Shown here piece after piece: positions 3,102 through 28,127 of a stretch of DNA of 32,120 nucleotides (positions are counted from its first letter, which is position 1; each line of letters begins with the position of its first letter). The translations under genes were made by a program, and so were the position numbers. This stretch comes from Pseudomonadota bacterium (GTDB lineage: Bacteria; Desulfobacterota; Desulfobulbia; Desulfobulbales; SURF-16): positions 1 through 32,120 of the forward strand of contig JAHILF010000055.1 in the NCBI GenBank assembly GCA_018897105.1. The letters are read 5' to 3'. The notes beneath the pieces are model-generated. The model was not told the origin of the DNA. It worked only from the letters and a program-made list of their open reading frames with translations, and did not search any database.

Positions 3102-4460
3102 TCAATCTGGAGCTGTGCTCATCACATGGCTCAGCTCTTCGATTTTGTTGTTTTTCATACGCCAATCGTACAGAGCGACCATATCCTTGTAGACCTGCTG
3201 CATCTGGAAGAAGCCGTGCCAGTGGGCATAGTCCGGTCCGTTCATGGCGGCGCCCTGGCGAGCCCTGCGGCCGGTGTGGTGCCAGAGGAAGTAATAAAGT
3301 TCCTGGAAGCCGTCCTGCCACGGGTCTTTGGCAAGCAATCCCTTGGCCTCCAGGGCCTTCTGCATCTCGGTGGCTTTGTCATAGTACGTGTTGTACAACT
3401 CCACCACGTTGTCCAGGGTCTGCATCTGCACATCGGTATGGGTTGAGCCGTGACAGTTGGCGCATACCTTGCGCATCAATATGTCGGCTTTCTTACCGTC
3501 GCCCCGGACCCCGCTTCGCAGCTCACTGCGGGGATGAACCAGATCCCATTTGAGGCGCTCGTTGACATTGTGGGTGGTGGATAGTTCGCCGATGCCGCTC
3601 ATATGGCAGACTGCGCAGGTCGGAGCCGAGTAATCTCCCGGCTGCCAGGTGTCAGGAGCGGCATCCCAATTCCACTCCTCGCCGTGGGTCTGGAAGATCT
3701 GGCCATGTTTGCTTTCAAGGTAGATTTCGATATCCGGATGATCCGGTCCGAGATGGCAGCTGGCGCAGGCTTCGGGTTTCCTGGCCTCTGCTATGGAAAA
3801 TTGATGGCGGGTATGGCAGACGGTACAGTTGCCCACCGAACCGTCAGGATACCTGGTGCCCACGCCGCCGGGCCAGGTTTCCTTGATCGGTTTGTTGTCC
3901 GGACCCAGTTCAACCTGGGTGCCGTGGCAGATCTGGCAGCCAGAGGCCCGGGCTGCACGGTTGCTTGGTGAACCGATCTCATTGCCCATGAACCCGCCCC
4001 CTTCGTGCTGGTACATCAGCTTCTGGAATTTCTCTTTTTCAATGACCGGGGCGCCGGAAAGATTGGCATGGCCGCTTTTCAGAAACTGCTCGACTTCGGC
4101 GGGATGGCAGCGTTCGCAGGTTTTGGATGAAACCATGGGGGAGATATAGGTGTTCGTTCCTTTAATGCCGGAACACTGGCTGGCCATGGGAGACGTTTTT
4201 TCAACCCCATGGCAGTCATAGCAGGTGATATTGGCATGCCCCATTTTCCCCTGCTTCCACGATGCGATGATGCCCGGGGTTTTATTGGCATGGCACTCGA
4301 TACATTTGGCGGCCTCTTCAGACATACCTCTTTTGATGACTATATCCCTGGGGGCCAGGTTGGGCATCTCTGCTGCCTGGGCAGTAACTGCACAAACGGT
4401 AAAGGCGCCAAGAAGTATGGTCGAGCCGAGCAGCCCTTTGCAGATGAACTTCTTTCTCAT
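3102..4460 (-). CDS. haoA: octahaem cytochrome c of the hydroxylamine oxidoreductase family
   Basis: A 452-residue periplasmic octahaem cytochrome. Residues 1-30 are a signal peptide ending AQA-A. Eight CxxCH sites follow: CIECH, CYDCH, CERCH, CQICH, CTVCH, CASCH, CAVCH and CANCH. The C-terminal helical part contains [18 protein letters not shown], typical of HAO-like proteins. Because it is paired with a NapC-type quinol dehydrogenase in a non-nitrifier, it more likely works reductively (nitrite or hydroxylamine to ammonium), as described for the epsilonproteobacterial HaoCA module, than as an ammonia-oxidiser HAO. GGAGG lies just upstream of the ATG. It is second in the operon, 39 bp after haoC. 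Family assignment is firm; direction of catalysis and presence of the Tyr cross-link to the active haem are not decided here. Confidence 0.9.
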
Positions 4461-11440: not shown

Positions 11441-12202
11441 TTAGCAGAACACCACAACCGCCGTAACATTATCCTTGCCGCCGGCCGCATTGGCCTGCCG
11501 GACAAGTTCATCACAGGCCTCCTCAGGCGAACCGGACCGCTCAAGAGTCTTGTGCATCTCCTCATCGCTCACCATGCCCCACAGACCGTCAGAACATAGC
11601 AGAATCTTATTGCCCGCTGAGAGCGGCACCCGGTGAAACTCCGGGTCTTCGGCAAAAGGAAAACCGATCCCCCTGGTGATGATATTGCGGCCCACCGCTT
11701 TTCCTCCATCCGCCAGCCCCAGCGTCTGGTCCGCCACCAGGGAATGGTCGGTGGTGAGTTGCTTGAGGATATAGCCATCGTCAAGATAGGCGCGGACATC
11801 CCCCACATGGCAGATAGAGGCAACACCGTTATCGATCAGACAGGCTACCAGGGTGCAGCCCATGCCGAGCAGATCCGAATTTTCCGCCGCCATGCCCACC
11901 ACCTTGTCATTGGTTTTATAAAAGCTCGCGATGAGTCCATGCTGGATGGCCGCAGGATTGCCCTGTATTTCGCGGATTTTCTCTGCGGAAAAATAGCTTA
12001 TCAGATACTCCGTTGCCTCCCGGCTGGCAATTTCTCCCGCCTGATGGCCTCCCATTCCGTCAGCAACCACAAAAAGGTTCCGCTCAACCAGAATGGCAAA
12101 ATTGTCCTCATTGTTTTTCCGCACCATGCCGGTATCCGTGCGGCCAAAACAGGCAAGGCTGCTCTGGGGAGCTCCAAAGAATTTTTTAAGAAACTGCAGC
12201 AT
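11441..12202 (-). CDS. PP2C-type Ser/Thr protein phosphatase
   Basis: A 253-residue PPM/PP2C phosphatase. Metal-binding and catalytic motifs are complete and in order: TDTGMVRKNNEDNF, VADGMGGHQAGEIAS, GMGCTLV, HVGDVRAYL, TTDHSLV, LLCSDGLWGM and GKDNVTAVVV. The core closely resembles bacterial Stp/PrpC enzymes that reverse Hanks-type kinases. The start at 12202 is chosen for the GGAGG five to six bases upstream; the frame stays open further upstream, but that part looks non-family. It lies last in a minus-strand series after the kinase, with a 220-bp gap containing a repeat, so it may be separately expressed. Its likely substrates are the kinase and the two FHA proteins encoded upstream. Confidence 0.93.
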   Translation of the reverse strand: MLQFLKKFFGAPQSSLACFGRTDTGMVRKNNEDNFAILVERNLFVVADGMGGHQAGEIASREATEYLISYFSAEKIREIQGNPAAIQHGLIASFYKTNDKVVGMAAENSDLLGMGCTLVACLIDNGVASICHVGDVRAYLDDGYILKQLTTDHSLVADQTLGLADGGKAVGRNIITRGIGFPFAEDPEFHRVPLSAGNKILLCSDGLWGMVSDEEMHKTLERSGSPEEACDELVRQANAAGGKDNVTAVVVFC

Positions 12203-12320
12203 GCTGCCTCCATGGTAAGGGAAGGTGGACATATGTGGCCACATGCCCTTTTTGCGGGTCCTTACGGAGTAAAATTTCCCATATATTAAAAACTGATGAA
12301 CTCGAAAAAAGTCTTTTTTC

Positions 12321-12373
12321 ACCACAGAGCGCACAGAGAAACATTTTTTATTACAGTCAGGCAGCTCTGTGGT
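12321..12373. repeat. inverted repeat ACCACAGAGC, REP-like
   Basis: ACCACAGAGC at 12321-12330 is matched exactly in reverse complement at 12364-12373, with a second CACAGAG copy at 12332-12338 inside the 33-base loop. Repeats built on this CACAGAG core are common in intergenic DNA of many environmental bacteria. It lies between the kinase stop and the phosphatase start and could act as an mRNA-processing or attenuating hairpin. Confidence 0.55.
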
Positions 12374-12422
12374 AATTTTTCAGTTTTTACGAATCCATCA
12401 AAAAAATATTCACAGACAAACT

Positions 12423-14888
12423 CTAAAGGCTGCGCAATGCCGAGGGCAGCCCATCATCAAACGCCAGGTGATAGATGACGCTCCACATGACAATAGCCCC
12501 ATCCTGGCGGCCGGAAAGAAAGGTATGGGGTTTGGGTCCCGGCGCCAACGTGCAGACCCCGTCTCCCCGGGCATCAAGAATCTGGTTGCATTTACCGGAC
12601 TGCCAGTTCCACAGTCGAATGATGTCGTCCTCGCAGCCGGAAATGATCGTCTGCCCGTCCTCAAGAAATAAAACCGCGGTCACCGCGTCTTGATGACCGT
12701 CGATTGTCAGCAGACACCGGCCTGCCGTGCAATCCCAGATCCTGACCAACCGGTCGGCACTGCCGGTTGCAATTCTTGCCCCATCAGCACTTACCGCCAT
12801 CGTTGTCACCGACAGGGCATGGGCCTCAATCTCCCGTCGGCACTCCCCTGAGCGGCCATCGTAAAACCGCAGGGAGCCGTCCTCACAGGAGGCGGCAAAA
12901 TTGCCATCCTTTACCCAGGCAAGACCGCGCACCCCTCCTCCTCCGGACAGGCCAACTTTTTTCAGTTTGCCATCCGCCGTGGCAAAGAGCATGATGTTGC
13001 CGTCCCCCATCCCTGCCAGTAACTGCCTGCCGTCAGGACTGAAGGCCAGGGATAAAATGGCGCTGTTGCCGAATGCCACCTCATGCTGCTCCCCGCTCTT
13101 ATAACAACGGAACCTGACCGCACCGTTTTTCTGGCCCACGGCAAGGGAGGACAGACCGGCAGCCAGTGCGGTAATTGCCTTTGCCGTCTCGGTAAAAAGC
13201 ACACTCTTTTTTTTCTCTCCCACGCTCCGCACCTGAACTCGGGTGCCGGAGGTGACGAAAAAAACAAGCTTTCTTGCCGGCAGACTGGCCAGAAAGGAAA
13301 CAGGGCCGGCGTCGATATCCGTATGGGTCACCAGCCTCTGCACCGTGGACAGCGCCCGTTTGCTTCCCTCGGGCAGCAGCTGCTCATAAATCTTGTAATA
13401 AAACTTGTCTTTCTTAAACTGTTCATTGCTCCAGCTGACCAGCAGGGTATCATAGCATTCCGTCAGCCGCCTGTTCTGCAGGAGAGTAAGAATATTATGA
13501 TGCACCGAGCTGCGCAGCTGGGCATCACGGAATATCTCCATGGGTGCCTTGGGAAAACAGAGCAGCAGCTGGGGCTCCCTGTCGCGATCTTTTCTCTGCA
13601 CCTCGCCTTCGTGCTCGATATTCTCGGCAATCTCCTTTTCAAGATCGTCAAAGATGGAGAGCTTGGGAAATCTCTTCTTGCTGGCCTCAATCCGGCGCAG
13701 CAGGCGCTCCGGGCTTTCCGTACTTTTGCACCATTTCATCATATACGAGTTGTAGAGAGCCTCGGTCAGCGAGTCATTGATCTCCAGGGTGCGGTCAAGA
13801 TACCCGGCGGCCTCCTTGTATTTGCCCAATTCCGCCAGTGAAACCGCCCGGTTATTCATATTTTCGGCGCGCAGATCGATTTTCCCCATAATGGCATAGG
13901 GGCATGACACCTGAAAAAGTTCGAGATAAACCTGGTTCAAGGCCTCCTTCAGTTCGGTAAAATCCTGAAAACGTTCGTCCTGTTGAAAGGCCACGCACTT
14001 TTTCAGAATATCTTTCAGCGTCTCAGGCAGGACAATTTCCGGTTTTGCCGGCTCGGGTTCGGGGCACTTCCCCTGGGCATTGTGTTTATACGGCCTTTTG
14101 CCGCAGAACATCATCCACAGGCAGAGGCCGAAGGAAAAAATATCCGTCCGCCGGTCAACTTTATGAGCATTGCGCAACTGTTCCGGGGAGGCATAGTTGG
14201 GGGTGCCGCGGAAACCGACGGTGTCGTTCCTGGACTGTCCTTTTTTCTGCGGAGCATCAACCTCACTGCTTGTATCATCAATGAGACGCAGAATGCCGAA
14301 ATCCGTGATTTTTACCAGACCGTCTTTGGAGAGCAAAATATTCTGGGGTTTGATGTCACGGTGGATGAACCCCTTGGAATGGGTATACTCCATGCCGTTA
14401 CAGAACTGGATGGCGATGGACAGGGCGGTTCGCATGTCCTGGCAACGTCCCCGGTTGATCCATTCCTCAAGAGTCCCGCCGGACACATATTCGATAAAAA
14501 TATGAGGTATTCCGGCAATTGACTTGACGTAATAGCAGGAGGCGATATTAGGGTGCAGGCCCAGACGAATCCAGCTGTTGGCCTCCGTCAGGATGCGCTG
14601 CAAACCTTCACGGTCTGCCCATACCTCCGGTTTGGGCGCCTTGATGGCCGTCCAGATGCCCCATGACAGGTGTTCGGCAATATAGACCTTGCCCATGGCG
14701 CCGCTGAAGATGCGATCAATACGGTAACGGTCCTGGACAACTTCACCCGGCAGCCAGTTCAGGTGGTTGGCATGATTGGCGGCAGCGGAATCGGACAGAA
14801 TCTCGGTGAGTTCGGCCGGCGGTGATGGCTCCGCGGCCTCCTGTCCTTTGAAACCCTTGCTTGCTCTTTTAAAAAAACGGGTGAGCAT
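12423..14888 (-). CDS. Hanks-type Ser/Thr protein kinase with TPR-like linker and WD40 propeller
   Basis: An 821-residue cytosolic kinase. The catalytic domain covers about residues 54-325: glycine loop FSGAMGKVY (61-69, first loop Gly replaced by Phe), ATP Lys83 in AIKAPK, alpha-C Glu near 102, catalytic HRDIKPQN (176-183), DFG (196-198) and GTPNYASPEQL. A TPR-like segment follows at about 344-380. After a helical linker the C-terminal 300 residues form WD40 repeats, with units such as LAFSPDGRQLLAGMGDG, IATGSADRLVRIWD and IISGCEDDIIRLWNW; about six or seven blades are discernible. No transmembrane helix is present, unlike PknB-type kinases, so input probably comes through protein contacts on the propeller. 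It is encoded between the FHA genes and the PP2C gene. Substrates are inferred, not shown. Confidence 0.93.
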   Translation of the reverse strand: MLTRFFKRASKGFKGQEAAEPSPPAELTEILSDSAAANHANHLNWLPGEVVQDRYRIDRIFSGAMGKVYIAEHLSWGIWTAIKAPKPEVWADREGLQRILTEANSWIRLGLHPNIASCYYVKSIAGIPHIFIEYVSGGTLEEWINRGRCQDMRTALSIAIQFCNGMEYTHSKGFIHRDIKPQNILLSKDGLVKITDFGILRLIDDTSSEVDAPQKKGQSRNDTVGFRGTPNYASPEQLRNAHKVDRRTDIFSFGLCLWMMFCGKRPYKHNAQGKCPEPEPAKPEIVLPETLKDILKKCVAFQQDERFQDFTELKEALNQVYLELFQVSCPYAIMGKIDLRAENMNNRAVSLAELGKYKEAAGYLDRTLEINDSLTEALYNSYMMKWCKSTESPERLLRRIEASKKRFPKLSIFDDLEKEIAENIEHEGEVQRKDRDREPQLLLCFPKAPMEIFRDAQLRSSVHHNILTLLQNRRLTECYDTLLVSWSNEQFKKDKFYYKIYEQLLPEGSKRALSTVQRLVTHTDIDAGPVSFLASLPARKLVFFVTSGTRVQVRSVGEKKKSVLFTETAKAITALAAGLSSLAVGQKNGAVRFRCYKSGEQHEVAFGNSAILSLAFSPDGRQLLAGMGDGNIMLFATADGKLKKVGLSGGGGVRGLAWVKDGNFAASCEDGSLRFYDGRSGECRREIEAHALSVTTMAVSADGARIATGSADRLVRIWDCTAGRCLLTIDGHQDAVTAVLFLEDGQTIISGCEDDIIRLWNWQSGKCNQILDARGDGVCTLAPGPKPHTFLSGRQDGAIVMWSVIYHLAFDDGLPSALRSL

Positions 14889-15062
14889 GATTTCACAAAA
14901 CCTTATGCATGGTAGTCAATGCAGGGAGAAGAGATACCTTCAGTGATTTTTTCTGCATCGTGGGGAAAGACCTTTTTTCACAGACCGCAAATGTTGCGGG
15001 ACAATCGCTGCACCCAGGCACACAGGCAGCATCACCGCGAAAAATGGTGAAAGATGCGGCCG

Positions 15063-15761
15063 TTATTCAAAACGTATCTGTACTCCGCGAATTTGAATAA
15101 TATCGCCTTTGAGCAGCTCCCGCTCCTCCCGCACCGCAATGCCGTTGACAGTGGTCTTTACCCAGCTGCGCTGCGGGACGAGATAAAATTTCTTATCACG
15201 ATTGATAACGTAACACTGGGCCTGGGCCACGAACCAGCTGGATACCCGCAGGTCGCAGTTGATGTCCTTGCCGATCTTAACGCTGCTGCGACCAAGCAGG
15301 GGGACCTCCGCCGGGCTGCCATTGCCCTTGAGCACCGTCAGATGATGGAGGGCTTTCCCTTTTTCTTTGGCCTTCGGGGCAGCGTCCGAGCGAGGGCCGC
15401 GGTTGACGAAAACCGTTTCATCGCCATAATCCATCGGCGCGCTTTGGGAAACGAATTTGGCATCCTTCAACGCCTCGGCAGGCAGCAGAAGGAATTTACC
15501 GACCTCGACGACATCATCATCAAAAAGCTGCACACATGAATCGATCTTCTTGCCATTGACCATGGTGCCGTTCAGGCTGCCGAGATCCTCCAGAAAATAG
15601 ACCCCGTTTCTTCTTTCAAGAGCAGTATGCTTGCGGGAAATAGCCGTATTATCAACCACCACGTCTGCTTCAGAACTTCTGCCGATTACCAGACGCTCGC
15701 CATCCTCAATGGCAAACTGCTTAACAACCTTGTCATGAAGCTTAATTGCCCATACAGCCAT
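15063..15761 (-). CDS. double FHA-domain phosphopeptide-binding protein
   Basis: A 232-residue protein with two FHA modules. The first (about 20-95) has the full phosphothreonine pocket: IGRSS (26-30), ISRKH (41-45) and GSLNGT (61-66). The second (about 145-232) keeps the fold pattern (GRSSVKIGKD, VNG, LLKGDIIQIRGVQIRF) but lacks the Arg-x-x-His and Ser-x-Asn-Gly contacts, so it probably no longer binds phosphate. Between them lies GDETVF (113-118), a candidate phospho-Thr site at Thr116. The same motif occurs in the neighbouring FHA-cyclase. By analogy with GarA/OdhI it may be phosphorylated by the adjacent kinase and fold back on its own FHA domain. It sits 166 bp after the cyclase gene and 174 bp before the kinase gene. 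Confidence 0.9.
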   Translation of the reverse strand: MAVWAIKLHDKVVKQFAIEDGERLVIGRSSEADVVVDNTAISRKHTALERRNGVYFLEDLGSLNGTMVNGKKIDSCVQLFDDDVVEVGKFLLLPAEALKDAKFVSQSAPMDYGDETVFVNRGPRSDAAPKAKEKGKALHHLTVLKGNGSPAEVPLLGRSSVKIGKDINCDLRVSSWFVAQAQCYVINRDKKFYLVPQRSWVKTTVNGIAVREERELLKGDIIQIRGVQIRFE

Positions 15762-15927
15762 AGTACACTCCTCTGCCAGCCGCTGCGCCGAAATTAAAAT
15801 TTGACATCCCTTTCTGCTTCCCTTCCGACAGGTAACAACATCACCTTCCCATGCGACGGATATCTTCCGAATCCACCGTTCCTATCCCAACTATGTCACA
15901 CAATTTGACAAATGTCATTTCCCGAGC

Positions 15928-16902
15928 TTATTTTTTCAGCAAAGATTTCCATTTGCCCAGATATTGCCGGATCGTTTCAAACGATGCGCTATAGGTCTGC
16001 ACGGATTCCGTCTTGCCTCTGACCGTATACGTCTGGGGTGTAAAATATGACGAGGCATCCTGCAGCTGTTGATAGGTCTTTTCCCCGAGTATCACATCTA
16101 TTTTCTGCCGGGAGGTAATTTCCTGCAACCTGAAGGCCACATTGACCACATCCCCGACAATGGTGAAATCCCGTTGTCCGTCGACACCGATATTGCCCAT
16201 CACCGCTTCACCGCTGTTTAAGGCGGCCCCGATTTTCAACTCCCGTCCGATACCCGGCACACTCTGGCCGAGTTTGCCTGTCAGGATACTGATTTCCAAA
16301 GCGGATAGCAAAGCCGTGGCCACGGCGGCGAAATCCGCGCCCTCGGGCCACACGGCAAGCACCGCATCCCCGATGAACTTGTCAACCTGGCCACCGTTTT
16401 TCCGCACAACCCCATCCACCTTCTTGCTCCACAGAGCCAGAAATTGCGAAACAGGGCCTGCGCCCACCTCTTCTGACAACGGGGTAAACTGCCGGATATC
16501 GCAAACAAGAATGGTTACATGGTTCTTCTGCAGAAAGGCGACCGTTTCATCGCCGGTGGCATCTGTCTCATCGCCTGACGGGGGGGAAAGCAGGGTCTCC
16601 TGCTGAAAAATCAGCTCCGATTTGCCTATCTTGACATGATCATGAGAGTTCAACTTGGTGGGGGTATAGACGCGCCGGCCATTGACAAAGGTGCCGTTGG
16701 CACTGCCGAGATCAACGATATTGTGACTGAAATTCGACTCCACCTGGACCATGGCATGCTGGCGGGACACCCAGCGATAGGGCAGGAGAATATCGCTCCC
16801 TTCACCGCGCCCCACGCGGTATGTGCTCTTCCCGGCCAACGTCCAGGTATGTTCTTCTCCACCGGCAACAAGTTTTAAAAAAGCTTTGGGCGAATCGCTC
16901 AT
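15928..16902 (-). CDS. FHA-domain class III adenylate cyclase
   Basis: A 324-residue soluble cyclase. The N-terminal FHA domain (about 24-100) has an intact pocket: VGRGEGS, WVSRQH (44-49) and GSANGT (66-71). A linker carries two GDET motifs (Thr113 and Thr120). The class III catalytic domain starts at about 128: metal-binding Asp135 in VCDIRQFT and Asp179 in DKFIGDAV, base-selecting Lys175 and Thr247, and transition-state Asn254 and Arg258 in GDVVNVAFRL. Lys plus Thr at the selectivity positions predicts ATP as substrate, hence cAMP. AGAGGAC precedes the ATG. It is the first gene of the minus-strand signalling series and is divergent from the HDOD gene. FHA-cyclase fusions are known, but their phospho-control is poorly described. 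Confidence 0.93.
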   Translation of the reverse strand: MSDSPKAFLKLVAGGEEHTWTLAGKSTYRVGRGEGSDILLPYRWVSRQHAMVQVESNFSHNIVDLGSANGTFVNGRRVYTPTKLNSHDHVKIGKSELIFQQETLLSPPSGDETDATGDETVAFLQKNHVTILVCDIRQFTPLSEEVGAGPVSQFLALWSKKVDGVVRKNGGQVDKFIGDAVLAVWPEGADFAAVATALLSALEISILTGKLGQSVPGIGRELKIGAALNSGEAVMGNIGVDGQRDFTIVGDVVNVAFRLQEITSRQKIDVILGEKTYQQLQDASSYFTPQTYTVRGKTESVQTYSASFETIRQYLGKWKSLLKK

Positions 16903-17232
16903 TGTCCTCTTTTATTATGATAGAAAATTGCATATACCATTGCCCCTTGGGGACATGAATCTTGCGGTTGCTCATTGTCGCCGCTTCCTGCCATTCCTGA
17001 CACGCCGGCACCAGGAGCCCGACAAATACCCGACTGATCTTTGCGGACAAGCGCCACCTGACATCTGCAAGGTATCAGGCATCATTGCCCGGAAGGCTGC
17101 TCGCGGCTTGCGGGAGAATGGTTTACCGGCAGAGAATGTTGAACCTAAAATATGGCAATTCTTTTTTTTTTCCCGTATAATACCATTTTATCGGGACAGG
17201 GTATAATTATTTAACCGGCAAATCATCACAAA
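16903..17232. other. divergent intergenic region, FHA-cyclase / HDOD gene
   Basis: This is a 330-bp gap between divergent genes and should contain both promoters. Two TATAAT hexamers occur on the plus strand at about 17174-17179 and 17202-17207, upstream of the HDOD start at 17233, but neither has a clear -35 partner. Open frames crossing it have unconvincing composition and overlap the cyclase start, so I call no gene here. Confidence 0.4.
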
Positions 17233-18747
17233 ATGACAGAATCGCAAGACAAACCGTCTGGGAAATTAGCTGAAATCTTTGCCAAGATGAACATGAGCGA
17301 ACTGCCAGCCATGTCCACCAATGTGCAGGAACTCATCTCCCTGGTACACAGTCGCCGCAGCGCCTCCTACGACCTGTCACGGGTTATCCTGAAGGACTAC
17401 TCCCTGACCAACAAGGTATTGCAGGTTGTCAATTCCGCCTACTACTCTCTGGGCCAGTCAGTCAGTTCCATCTCCAAGGCTGTCACCATTCTGGGCTTTG
17501 ACGCGGTGCGCGATCTGGCAACGGCCATAGCAATTTTTGAAGATTTCATCAAATCCGGGGTCGAAAAAGAGGGTATCACCAAACTGATGACCCGCTCCTT
17601 TCTCAGCGCCCTGCACTGTAGGGACCTTGCCGGCGAGAAAAAGCTCAATGTGCTGCCGGAAGAGGCTTTCATCTGCGGCCTGCTCCACAATCTCGGCAAA
17701 ATTATTACCTTTATATACATGCCCGAGATCTATAAAAAAATCGAGCACAATGTATTCCTGGGCATCCCTGAAGAAACCGCCACACGGGAACTTCTCGAAG
17801 ATCTTACCTTTGCCGATCTGGGCAAGGAGATAGCCAAATTCTGGAACCTCTCCCACAAAGTTGTGGTTTCAATGGAGATCCATCCAGCCAAACCAAAAAG
17901 CAGTTACGATGCTGAAGGATATCTGCAGAATCTCGCCGATTTCAGCAACCGTTTTGTCGAGCTGGTTTGTCACGAAGAAGACACCAGCGAACTGCTGAAC
18001 CACTATGCTGAAATAATATCCATCAATCAGGAACAGGCCCTGGCGTTGCTAAGTAAAGGCGTGGAGGCATCCCAGGACATCTCCGACTCCATCCGCTTCG
18101 GTCTGTCGAAGCTTAAAATCCACAGCAGACTGGAAAAGGCCGCCAGGCGCGAACCGGCCTCTGGCGAACAGGAAGAAACAGCAAAAAAGGGGAAAAAAAA
18201 CGGACAGGACATTGAGGTGCTGGACGAATTACCGTCCAGCGATAAATCCATCAACGACTTTATCAAAGAAATGACTGAGACCCTGATGGGTTCCTTTCAA
18301 CTCAATGAATTTTATGCCAACCTGCTGGAAGCCATATACCGGGGAGTAGGGTTTGACCGGGTAATCCTCTGCGTGATGAGTATCCAGACAACTAAAATCG
18401 TGCTGGCAGGACGCTTCGGTTTAGGCGACATAGATGCCCAGGATATTGCCAATTTTGAACAGCCTCTGGCCAATGTGGATCAGGTCATTCCGCGGGCCAT
18501 GAAACAATGCAAGGATATTGCCGTAGTAGCTGATGCGCCGGGAGCTTTCCCCGAAAACATGCATTACCTGGTCAAAGGACGAACCATTTACCTTTTCCCC
18601 ATCGTTGTCAATAACAAGGCCATCGCCCTGCTTTATATGGATCGCAAGGCAGGCAGACCCAAACTTAACAAAGACCGCATCAAGGCCCTCAGACTTTTTC
18701 GTGATTTTGCCGCCATGGCTATCAAGAAAAGCAGCAAAAAAGGATAA
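17233..18747 (+). CDS. HDOD-domain signalling protein with C-terminal GAF domain
   Basis: A 504-residue soluble protein. Residues about 20-220 form an HDOD domain, with the characteristic LPAMSTNVQELI start, VVNSAYYSLGQSVSSISKAVTILGFDAVRDLA and a degenerate HD region (FICGLLHNLGKII). HDOD proteins lack most metal ligands of HD hydrolases and act as scaffolds in signal transduction, motility or dispersal. A charged linker (about 300-330) separates it from a C-terminal GAF-like domain (about 340-500; YRGVGFDRVILCVM, IYLFPIVVNNKAIALLYMD), a likely ligand sensor. The ribosome site is weak. serS begins six bases after its stop, so the two are co-transcribed. It is divergent from the FHA-cyclase, suggesting a role in the same signalling island. 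Confidence 0.87.
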   Translation: MTESQDKPSGKLAEIFAKMNMSELPAMSTNVQELISLVHSRRSASYDLSRVILKDYSLTNKVLQVVNSAYYSLGQSVSSISKAVTILGFDAVRDLATAIAIFEDFIKSGVEKEGITKLMTRSFLSALHCRDLAGEKKLNVLPEEAFICGLLHNLGKIITFIYMPEIYKKIEHNVFLGIPEETATRELLEDLTFADLGKEIAKFWNLSHKVVVSMEIHPAKPKSSYDAEGYLQNLADFSNRFVELVCHEEDTSELLNHYAEIISINQEQALALLSKGVEASQDISDSIRFGLSKLKIHSRLEKAARREPASGEQEETAKKGKKNGQDIEVLDELPSSDKSINDFIKEMTETLMGSFQLNEFYANLLEAIYRGVGFDRVILCVMSIQTTKIVLAGRFGLGDIDAQDIANFEQPLANVDQVIPRAMKQCKDIAVVADAPGAFPENMHYLVKGRTIYLFPIVVNNKAIALLYMDRKAGRPKLNKDRIKALRLFRDFAAMAIKKSSKKG

Positions 18748-25478: not shown

Positions 25479-28127
25479 ATGGAAGTCATAACAACTCATT
25501 TAAACGCCGATTTCGACGGCATGGCCTCAATGGTTGCCGCGAAAAAACTCTACCCCGAGGCCGTTCTGGCCTTTTCCGGATCCCAGGAGAAAAACCTGCG
25601 GAAATTTTTTGTGCAGTCCCTGATGATCTATGATTTCCAGCGCTTGAAAAACATTGATCTGGAAAAAGTAACCAAATTAATCGTAGTCGACACCAGACAG
25701 ACATCACGGATCGGCAGTTTTGCCAAATGTCTGGAGAATCCCGGCATACAAATCCACTTGTACGACCACCATCCCGATGCCCCCGGAGATATGAAAGGTG
25801 ACGTGGAAGTGGTGAGACCTGTCGGCTCCACCGCCACTGTTTTCATCGAAATCTTCCAGAAACAAGGCATCTCCATCACGAAAGAGGAGGCCACCCTGCT
25901 GGCCATGGCGGAACATGAAGACACCGGCTCCTTCACCTTCAGCACCACCACCCCCGCCGACTTACACGCCATGGCCTGGCTGATGGGGTGCGGAGCTGAG
26001 CTTCACACTGTTTCCCAGTATATTATCCATGAGCTGACAAGTTACGATATCTCCCTGCTGCATGAACTGATCAAGTCAGCAACCACCTATACGATCCAGT
26101 CCATACCCATTACCGTCACCAGGATTGCCTGCCGACAGTATGTTGATGAATTTTCCCTTATTGTCCGCCAGTTCATGAGCATGGAAAACCTGAACGTCAT
26201 CTTTGCTTTGGCCAGCATGGGAGAACGGATTTATCTGATTGCCAGAAGCAGAATTCCCGAAGTCAATGTCGGCAAGATTGCCATGGAATTCAATGGTGGC
26301 GGCCATGCCTCTGCCGCAGCGGCAACGATTAACGACATGACCCTGATTGAGGCTGAAGAAAAGCTCATCCGCCTTCTGCACAAGCATGTGCGACCCGAGA
26401 GCAAAGCCTGGGAACTGATGTCCTCGCCCATTATTTCCGCGGGGCCGGAGTTGACGACAGCAGAGGCAAACGACCTACTTATCCGCTACGGCATCACCAT
26501 GCTGCCGATCATAAAAGACAGCAAAATCCTGGGGCTTTTTTCACGGCGGGATGCCAGCAAGGCAATTTTCCATAATCTGGGTCATCTGCCTGTCACGGAA
26601 TTCATGAGCACGGAATTCGCCACCCTGCCGCCATCCGCCACCCTTGGCGATATCCAGGAACTCATCATAGAGCACCGGCAACGCTTCATTCCCATTGTGG
26701 AAGAGGGATGCCTGCAAGGGGTAATCACCAGAACGGATCTGTTCAACCTACTGGTCAATGACCCAACCTATCTCCCCAGCCTGAACACAACCCAGAGTCA
26801 GCCATCGGCAGAGCGCAACAGAAATCTGACCAACCTGCTCAGCCAGTCACTCAACCGGAAAATGCTTATTCTCCTGCAAACCATCGGCGAGGTGGCTAGG
26901 GAGAACCATTTTACCGCCTATGCCGTGGGAGGTTTTGTCCGTGACCTGCTGCTGCACATTGAAAATTATGATCTGGATATCGTCGTCGAAGGCGACGGCA
27001 TAACCTTTGCCAAAAAGCTGGCCAAGGCCTTAGACGGTTCCTTGCGCACCCATGTCAAATTCAATACCGCCATGGTGAAGCTGCCCACTGGTTTTAAAAT
27101 CGATATCGCCACGGCCCGTCTCGAATATTATGAATATCCGGCGGCTATGCCCACGGTTGAGTTAAGCTCCATCAAGCTGGATCTCTTCCGCCGCGATTTC
27201 ACCATAAATGCCATGGCGATTTACCTGAATCCGGACAAATTCGGCATCCTCGTCGACTTCTTCAACTGCCAGAACGATCTCAAAGACAGACAAATCCGCA
27301 TCATCCACAATTTGAGTTTTGTTGAAGATCCAACCCGGATTTTCAGAGCCATTCGCCTTGAGCAGCGCATGGGCTTTAGTCTGGGGAAATTAACGGAAAA
27401 GCAGCTGAAGAACGCAGTGAAAATGAACCTGTTTGACCAAAAACTCGGACGCCGCTATTTCCACGAAATCCAGCTGATTCTTTCCGAGCATAATCCTCTG
27501 CCGGCAATCCAGCGTATGGCCCAGTTCGACCTGTTAAAATTTCTGCACCACTCCTTAATCCTCGATCCTCGGCTGAGCCAAATCCTGGAAGAAACCCAGC
27601 GAGCCATCTCCTGGCACAAACTCCTCTATCTTTCCGAAAACTGCCAGCCGTGGATTGTTTTCCTGCTGGCCCTGATGTCCCGTATCCAGACCAGGGCTAT
27701 GCTCGCATTCTGCCGAAAATTCGAGGTACCGGAAAGACACACCCAGATTTTAATCAGGGAAAAAATTGAGGCAAAACGGATTGTCCGCATCCTGGAACGA
27801 CGCGCGCACCTGTGTCCCAGCGAAATCTACTGGCTGCTCAAGGGGTTAACCCATGAGGGGCTGCTTTTTGTCATGGCGCTTTGTCGGAACAAAATGGGGA
27901 AACAGGCTGTCTCGCTCTATGTAACCCAACTGCGCCACATGAGAACCTACCTGCGTGGCGAGGACTTGAAAAAACTGGGATACCGGCCAGGACCACGATA
28001 CCAAACGATACTGAATCATCTTCTGGAAAATAAGCTGAACGGAGAATTGCACACCAGGGAGGACGAGTGCAGATTTCTTGGCAGAGAGTACCCTTTGCCT
28101 CCAGAGACAAATAAGGATACAAAATGA
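25479..28127 (+). CDS. DHH phosphoesterase - CBS pair - class II tRNA nucleotidyltransferase/poly(A) polymerase fusion
   Basis: An 882-residue three-part protein. Residues 1-300 are a DHH/DHHA1 phosphoesterase: HLNADFDG (7-14), DTR (71-73), DHH (96-98), HEDTGSF and GGGHASAAAA (about 272). Residues about 305-435 are two CBS domains, usually adenine-nucleotide sensors. The C-terminal half is a CCA-adding/poly(A) polymerase catalytic domain with VGGFVRDLLL (about 483), metal motif DLDIV (about 498), RRDFTINAMA (about 570) and VEDPTRIFRAIRLEQRMGF. In Deltaproteobacteria and Aquifex such enzymes add A, or C and A, to tRNA ends. The DHH part could be an oligoribonuclease or cyclic-dinucleotide hydrolase. 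The next gene overlaps by 4 bp (ATGA), indicating coupling. The specific nucleotide added cannot be told. Confidence 0.9.
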   Translation: MEVITTHLNADFDGMASMVAAKKLYPEAVLAFSGSQEKNLRKFFVQSLMIYDFQRLKNIDLEKVTKLIVVDTRQTSRIGSFAKCLENPGIQIHLYDHHPDAPGDMKGDVEVVRPVGSTATVFIEIFQKQGISITKEEATLLAMAEHEDTGSFTFSTTTPADLHAMAWLMGCGAELHTVSQYIIHELTSYDISLLHELIKSATTYTIQSIPITVTRIACRQYVDEFSLIVRQFMSMENLNVIFALASMGERIYLIARSRIPEVNVGKIAMEFNGGGHASAAAATINDMTLIEAEEKLIRLLHKHVRPESKAWELMSSPIISAGPELTTAEANDLLIRYGITMLPIIKDSKILGLFSRRDASKAIFHNLGHLPVTEFMSTEFATLPPSATLGDIQELIIEHRQRFIPIVEEGCLQGVITRTDLFNLLVNDPTYLPSLNTTQSQPSAERNRNLTNLLSQSLNRKMLILLQTIGEVARENHFTAYAVGGFVRDLLLHIENYDLDIVVEGDGITFAKKLAKALDGSLRTHVKFNTAMVKLPTGFKIDIATARLEYYEYPAAMPTVELSSIKLDLFRRDFTINAMAIYLNPDKFGILVDFFNCQNDLKDRQIRIIHNLSFVEDPTRIFRAIRLEQRMGFSLGKLTEKQLKNAVKMNLFDQKLGRRYFHEIQLILSEHNPLPAIQRMAQFDLLKFLHHSLILDPRLSQILEETQRAISWHKLLYLSENCQPWIVFLLALMSRIQTRAMLAFCRKFEVPERHTQILIREKIEAKRIVRILERRAHLCPSEIYWLLKGLTHEGLLFVMALCRNKMGKQAVSLYVTQLRHMRTYLRGEDLKKLGYRPGPRYQTILNHLLENKLNGELHTREDECRFLGREYPLPPETNKDTK

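Follow-up and report, generated by a model that had tools for sequence, protein, structure and literature searches.

A row of eukaryotic-like signalling genes raises the question whether a Ser/Thr kinase and a phosphatase can act, through FHA domains, on cyclic AMP (cAMP) synthesis in a bacterium. The row lies on a 32,120-nucleotide stretch of contig JAHILF010000055.1 (assembly GCA_018897105.1), which is called the window here. It contains an FHA-cyclase, a small protein with two FHA domains (the adaptor), a Ser/Thr kinase with a WD40 propeller, and a PP2C phosphatase, all on the minus strand, together with an HDOD gene running divergently from the cyclase. Open reading frame (ORF) calls and Pfam agreed, and all five genes were found where the original prediction had put them. 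Based on the sequences of these genes and their relatives, we hold it somewhat better than an even bet that a kinase-phosphatase-FHA switch has a class III adenylate cyclase under its control, together with other targets. A wider proposal, to which we give about even chances, is that an order-wide phosphothreonine relay, in which a soluble WD40 Hanks kinase and a PP2C would add and remove phosphate on the linker threonines of both FHA proteins, gates a cyclase bearing both the phospho-acceptor and its reader, and that the cyclase gene was brought into the kinase cluster at a later time, in a single family. The order compared was probably Desulfobulbales, because the relative Desulfurivibrio is placed there; the titled close relatives of the cyclase gene were those of Desulfurivibrio sp. 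SURF_16 (85%) and of a metagenome-assembled genome titled Proteobacteria (94%). The central evidence lies in the two FHA proteins, whose features are as follows.

15928..16902, minus strand: FHA-class III nucleotidyl cyclase, 324 amino acids (Pfam; alignment of 53)
16624..16821, minus strand: FHA domain of the cyclase (profile match)
16546..16593, minus strand: linker, residues 104-119, probably flexible (predicted local distance difference test score below 50 in the AlphaFold model)
16543..16545, minus strand: Thr120 codon, candidate phospho-acceptor at the border of linker and cyclase (conservation)
15991..16530, minus strand: class III cyclase catalytic domain (D135, D179, K175, T247, N254, and R258 present)
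15063..15761, minus strand: double-FHA adaptor, 232 amino acids (Pfam FHA, E 3e-29, two stretches)
15498..15689, minus strand: first FHA domain, canonical pocket letters (profile match)
15354..15464, minus strand: linker, approximately residues 100-136, probably disordered (low-confidence AlphaFold model)
15414..15416, minus strand: Thr116 codon, candidate phospho-acceptor (conservation)
15090..15281, minus strand: second FHA-like domain, probable pseudo-FHA (profile E 2e-7)

In both proteins the linker between the FHA domain and the next domain was variable except around one threonine. Alignments of 57 cyclases and 33 adaptors of the order, from which only identical sequences had been removed and which included a few partial genes, indicated that T120 was present in every cyclase (53/53 in a stricter set), with D or E at position 118 in 54 and N in 3, V or I at 121 in all 57, A122 in 55, and F123 in 49. 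Likewise, all 33 adaptors carried T116, D or E at 114, V or I at 117, and F118; three adaptor rows had one extra residue ahead of the threonine, the acid at -2 being counted by alignment column. Serine occupied the threonine column in no row of either set. FHA domains prefer phosphothreonine, and a site read by one would be expected to lack serine, as observed. In the AlphaFold models, T116 was located within the low-confidence linker and T120 at the linker end, just ahead of the first cyclase strand.

The signature was then compared with several backgrounds. Among 32 class III cyclases lacking an FHA domain, none had threonine at the place equivalent to T120 and six had one within two residues, the place being counted ungapped back from the metal-binding Asp in a set that contained several close relatives and one partial sequence. 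The pattern [DE]xT[VIML] occurred somewhere in 40 residues in 2 of these 32 controls, and none of them matched the FHA profile built here (E up to 1), which found three positive controls. The background rate of [DEN]xT[VI] in ten other proteins of the window was 148 of 4643 windows of 40 residues (3.2%). The genome also encodes a third FHA protein, FHA-GAF-HisKA, with E-Q-T-V-V-L right after its FHA domain.

Next, the integrity of the domains was examined. The predicted fusion of FHA and adenylate cyclase was borne out on 15928-16902(-) by Pfam matches to FHA (E 2e-17) and Guanylate_cyc (E 1e-12). In the cyclase FHA domain, G31, R32, S46, R47, H49, N69, G70, T71, and N74 were invariant in 53/53 non-redundant sequences, and in the first adaptor FHA domain G27, R28, S42, H45, N64, and N69 were invariant in 51/51, with G65 in at least 90%. 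In the catalytic core (n = 53), D135, K175, and N254 were invariant and D179, T247, and R258 were conserved in at least 90%, all being present in the window. We take D135 and D179 to be the metal-binding aspartates and K175 to be the substrate lysine, the role of each cyclase residue being assigned from general knowledge, and the K175/T247 pair is presumably the base-recognizing pair of class IIIb adenylate cyclases. In alignment to CyaB (3r5g), both metal Asp residues and the substrate Lys, Asn, and Arg were kept, as in a class III nucleotidyl cyclase. With K175 invariant and T247 in at least 90%, the enzyme is predicted to be an adenylate rather than a guanylate cyclase. The letters GR, SxxH, and NG, given as the FHA motif set in the available part of an earlier survey (PMC1262709), were complete in the cyclase FHA domain and the first adaptor FHA domain, which is the pattern of phosphothreonine binders; in the second adaptor FHA domain, the usual pocket letters were, by reading of the alignment, replaced and the set incomplete.

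The genome encodes three class III cyclases, among them the FHA-cyclase, and its 12 matches to the cNMP-binding family are possible cAMP receivers. A second cluster of the genome (L158:5189-10949, G000:C49) encodes a Cache-HAMP cyclase, a TPR Ser/Thr kinase, and the FHA-GAF-HisKA protein, and elsewhere (L159:2810-5154, G000:C90) a double-FHA protein lies beside a PP2C-like gene and, by reading, has a proline-rich linker without the threonine motif.

The remaining genes of the island have the following features.

12423..14888, minus strand: Ser/Thr kinase with WD40 propeller, 821 amino acids (Pfam Pkinase, E 5e-42, and WD40)
13929..14711, minus strand: Hanks kinase domain (domain search; alignment of 9)
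14220..14222, minus strand: Thr223 codon in the activation-loop motif T-x-G-F (invariant in 9/9)
12477..13148, minus strand: WD40 propeller, approximately residues 581-804 (Pfam)
11441..12202, minus strand: PP2C phosphatase, likely true extent (called ORF 11441-12334; Pfam E 7e-16)
17233..18747, plus strand: HDOD protein with a weak C-terminal GAF match (HDOD E 4e-42; GAF E 0.006; serS next, gap 6 bp)

K83, H176-R177-D178, N183, and D196-F197-G198 of the kinase were invariant in 9/9 sequences, as in Hanks-type kinases; with the catalytic residues kept in both enzymes, cyclase and kinase are predicted to be active. Of the TPR and WD40 parts that had been claimed for the kinase, the WD40 part was found beside Pkinase and no TPR model appeared among the best 25 Pfam families listed, while a soluble kinase is plausible, the highest 19-residue hydrophobic mean across the island proteins being 1.75. 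For the predicted HDOD-GAF gene, the HDOD domain and the divergent orientation held and the GAF match was below the Pfam cut-off. In the more distant relatives, alignment to the PP2C begins at approximately residue 31-45, which makes 12202 (ATG) its probable start; the phosphatase scored 210 bits against the Stp1/IreP equivalog (cut-off 230). The kinase reached 180 of 450 bits with the PASTA kinase (Stk1/PknB) equivalog, in its kinase part only, and so was not assigned to that group. As a third conserved threonine motif we considered the kinase N-terminal tail, which was present in several family members and not conserved across the order, and it was dropped.

Three observations concern kinase relatives. 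A paralogue (L137:2230-4440, G000:C136) has kept the WD40 part and lost the HRD and DFG letters, making it, by reading, an apparent pseudokinase. G004, G028, G110, G016, and G050 also gave matches to the region that follows the kinase domain. The orthologue at L007:9948-12366 is in two frames near residues 442-456, owing to a frameshift or an assembly error.

In the proposed mechanism, the input to the kinase would perhaps be sensed by its WD40 part, and the kinase would phosphorylate Thr116 of the adaptor linker and, in the FHA-cyclase, Thr120 immediately before the catalytic domain. The intact FHA domains would bind the two phosphothreonines, within the same molecule or across partners, and docking of phosphorylated Thr120 would shift the N terminus of the catalytic domain, a known point of regulation in class III cyclases, and alter cAMP output. 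By analogy with the diguanylate cyclase DgcB, output would go up more likely than down, the sign being a guess, and the PP2C would reverse the phosphorylation. The region N-terminal to the class III cyclase core is described as a transducer element in the available part of a published account (PMC5995499), and T120 sits near there. If the mechanism is correct, the single residue Thr120 would make a direct connection between a Ser/Thr kinase and cAMP testable in a bacterium.

The closest precedent is Bdellovibrio DgcB (PDB 6hc0, 6hc1, and 6hbz; PMC6733907), in which an FHA domain is fused to a cyclase making a nucleotide messenger, as here, and DgcB structures were among the Foldseek matches of both FHA-protein models. 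According to the available part of that report, the phosphorylated tail of DgcB is proposed to switch on the cyclase, and DgcB likewise has a conserved threonine in a flexible segment with an acid at -2 and a hydrophobic residue at +3 (PMC6733907). By analogy, the FHA-cyclase may work in the same way, its FHA domain binding its own phosphopeptide and activating the cyclase, to the extent that a partially matching sequence pattern suggests. Unlike DgcB, it has a Guanylate_cyc domain instead of GGDEF, with cAMP as predicted product instead of cyclic di-GMP (c-di-GMP), so that it does not belong to the DgcB group, and its threonine lies in a linker before the catalytic domain rather than in an N-terminal tail. 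The class IIIb cyclases CyaC, CyaB, and OaPAC share the catalytic fold and residues with the FHA-cyclase, whereas its regulatory domain is an FHA domain with a candidate phosphothreonine linker.

The adaptor resembles GarA and OdhI of Actinobacteria, which act with PknB and PknG, in being a small FHA protein with a threonine motif outside the FHA fold. As far as the available part of one source goes, the GarA sites lie in an unstructured extension, its own FHA domain binds the phosphothreonine, and Hanks kinases switch the protein (PMC5448819). Where these proteins have an N-terminal ETTS motif, the adaptor has its motif in the linker, and it also bears a second FHA domain, which is degenerate; the known action of GarA is on the tricarboxylic acid cycle. 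The OdhI equivalog model gave 56 and 43.5 bits against the 200 needed for assignment. Outside the order, double-FHA proteins carried a linker threonine in 19/20 loci, which came from 19 of 35 genomes with a match and were 23-34% identical to the adaptor of the window, and the next residue was mostly M, V, or I. The occurrence of this threonine inside and outside the order would suggest a general GarA-like switch in the double-FHA adaptor family. The linkers of these outside loci (L138-L157) often read D-x-T-M/V/I-x-L-D-T.

The distribution of the genes was examined in 146 genomes of the order from 54 genera, in which the cyclase, the adaptor, and the kinase were searched genome-wide; the PP2C and HDOD distributions were taken from fetched neighbourhoods, and partial contigs (L014, L102, L110, and others), which cannot show missing neighbours, were kept in the presence counts. 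The original prediction had declared itself refutable by a lack of co-occurrence of the five genes in relatives, and the outcome was positive for the three genes searched genome-wide, which co-occur across the order. The cyclase was found in 60 genomes, the adaptor in 67, and the kinase in 63 (60 when G004, G028, and G110, which matched only behind the kinase domain, were left out). Cyclase and adaptor were both present in 56 genomes, the cyclase only in 4, the adaptor only in 11, and neither in 75; the corresponding numbers of genera were 26, 3, 4, and 21. Of the 71 genomes with either FHA gene, 15 lacked the other. In a phylum-wide sample of 297 genomes, the cyclase (E 1e-50 or better) was confined to 3, all in the same order, and double-FHA relatives (E 1e-25 or better) were present in 38. 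Around the 20 double-FHA loci outside the order, several of them on short contigs, a PP2C was near in 15 and a kinase in 10. The kinase/PP2C/FHA set is of a widespread kind, and the cyclase is its order-specific part.

In the family of the window, the cyclase and adaptor genes were immediate neighbours and read the same way in 16 of the 17 genomes with a cyclase, and in the 17th (G016) the two were at contig ends in matching orientation. Of the 12 named loci (L006-L017), nine contained the complete order cyclase-adaptor-kinase-PP2C (L006-L010, L013, and L015-L017), L014 was a short contig with the cyclase, the adaptor, and part of the kinase, and L011 and L012 had the cyclase without the others nearby. 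The HDOD gene was divergent beside the cyclase in L006, L007, L010, L013, and L015-L017, and was absent within 3-4 kb upstream in L008 and L009.

Several observations weigh against control of the cyclase by this module. The co-occurrence carries no correction for shared ancestry, the Fisher values from the presence counts (5e-24 for genomes and 4e-8 for genera) ignoring relatedness. Outside the family, none of the 39 genomes with both genes had the cyclase adjacent to the adaptor on a contig: in four the genes shared a contig, at distances of approximately 7, 21, 47, and 88 kb, and in 35 they were on different contigs, whose ends could hide neighbours. The predicted phosphothreonine/FHA route to cAMP is partly supported: it gains a candidate threonine in each FHA protein, and the cyclase lies beside the module only in the family of the window. 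In 11 genomes (five 60-86% complete, six 90-99%) the adaptor occurs and the cyclase does not, so that the kinase module also has some other role. The kinase of the island is one of four in the genome at E 1e-10 or better, and the other three could act on the FHA proteins. The gaps between the four same-strand genes were 166 bp, 174 bp, and 88 bp (approximately 220 bp with the later PP2C start); with gaps of 88-220 bp, the four genes may or may not form a single co-transcribed operon. The self-peptides of GarA, OdhI, and DgcB, as described in the available part of PMC6733907, have an acid at -2, hydrophobic residues at +3 and -3, and Ser at +1, and the match to them was partial, with mostly D, G, or E at -3 and V or I at +1 here. 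Finally, the formation of phosphorylated Thr120 and Thr116, this kinase as their source, the binding by FHA domains, and the effect on cAMP are all steps that we infer.

The strongest rival, because 11 genomes lack the cyclase, is that the module serves other targets with the cyclase as a side branch: it would be a GarA-like switch for partners in metabolism or for the HDOD output, and the FHA-cyclase, a mere neighbour in one family, would read phosphothreonines of other kinases or none. In 19 adaptor loci outside the family the core stood without the cyclase, the divergent HDOD gene being present in 17, the kinase in 18, the PP2C in 18, and the cyclase in none (L110 and L102 end at contig ends), and double-FHA proteins with the linker threonine occur outside the order, where the cyclase was not found in the sample of 297 genomes. 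On the other hand, the adaptor accompanies the cyclase in 56 of 60 genomes, adjoins it throughout nearly all of the window's family, and shares its linker signature. We therefore regard this alternative as rather unlikely, and retain the reading that the cyclase is one of the outputs of the switch.

The conserved core across the order is thus HDOD / adaptor-kinase-PP2C, and the cyclase was, on the simplest reading, probably inserted into it once, in the ancestor of the window's family. Among 20 fetched cyclase loci, 19 of them outside the family, 11 shared TatD and YggS-like (alanine-racemase N-terminal fold) neighbours, typed on one locus, L081, and fewer shared Dfp (9), a nitroreductase (6), a MinD-like ATPase (6), and PilZ (5). 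The free cyclase tree split the family in two, with one part on a long branch, and in the free adaptor tree the family was not one clade; a single family clade was not rejected by either (p 0.42 for the cyclase, 0.28 for the adaptor). We also considered that the cyclase had become linked to the module twice independently, and set this aside, a single clade not being rejected and one relocation being simpler.

A second alternative concerns the residue itself. Thr120 would be structural rather than a phosphosite, and the FHA domain would bind an outside phosphoprotein such as the adaptor or the kinase activation loop; this overlaps the other readings, and its likelihood is not exclusive of theirs. 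T120 is conserved together with A122 (at least 90%) and F123 (49/57) where the model, ordered from approximately residue 124, enters the cyclase strand, which also counts against control through Thr120, and its conservation may be partly structural. The invariant Thr223 of the kinase would offer another docking site, and GarA is said to have been found by Villarino in 2005 to be recruited through the PknB activation loop. However, the acid-x-Thr-V/I pattern is also present in the double-FHA linker, which has no cyclase behind it, and threonine was absent from this place in the FHA-less controls. A purely structural Thr120 accordingly seems unlikely to us, and a phospho-acceptor remains the favoured assignment.

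Membership of the island in type VI secretion system (T6SS) control is very unlikely. The T6SS threonine phosphorylation pathway (PpkA-PppA-Fha) does combine a kinase, a PP2C, and an FHA protein, as here, and two TssC-like (VipB family) genes lie elsewhere in the genome, so that the predicted lack of secretion genes holds for the scanned window products and not for the genome; TssC-like genes occurred in 8 of 22 sampled genomes of the window's family. Across the order, however, TssC was not associated with the adaptor (10 of 67 genomes with it vs 10 of 79 without; Fisher p 0.81), and the TagH model gave 50 bits against a cut-off of 120, which places the FHA proteins outside T6SS TagH/Fha. An anti-phage role, with the kinase beside a Pycsar-like cyclase, is hardly credible: the PADLOC matches to mad6 (E 9e-61), PD-T4-6 kinase models, and the PycC cyclase model (E 1e-19), from a scan covering only the five island proteins, reflect models that match general kinase and cyclase domains, and the gene trees track families closely, unlike typical defence islands.

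Part of the picture is already known, namely WD-repeat kinases, FHA genes clustered with kinases and phosphatases, and FHA-gated c-di-GMP synthesis. WD-repeat Ser/Thr kinases were reported in 2005, mainly from cyanobacteria, and FHA genes were noted to cluster with kinases and phosphatases, according to the available part of PMC1262709; unlike those kinases, the present one lies within an FHA/PP2C/cyclase set and in another bacterial group. In the open-licence PubMed Central (PMC) literature, outside which most subscription journals fall, no report among the matches listed described an FHA-adenylate cyclase under kinase control, or the combination of FHA/kinase/PP2C with an adenylate cyclase, their co-occurrence, or the shared linker threonine. 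As far as the available part of PMC6733907 shows, its authors did not identify the kinase of DgcB; here the kinase and the phosphatase are genetically linked.

The genes around the island are ordinary: mobA and moeA flank it on one side, and the other side carries serS, a PEP-CTERM protein, ddl, an FAD oxidase, and an integrase-family recombinase. Promoter-like sites numbered 11 (5.8 expected) and terminator-like sites 9 (8.1 expected), which is uninformative on operon structure. Farther away in the window, positions 211-2235 and 3102-4460 gave an octahaem tetrathionate-reductase-family match (233 of 375 bits) and a hydrazine-dehydrogenase match (72 of 900 bits) far under the cut-off. Positions 25479-28127 encode one 882-amino-acid protein with DHH/DHHA1, two CBS stretches, and a polyA polymerase head domain.

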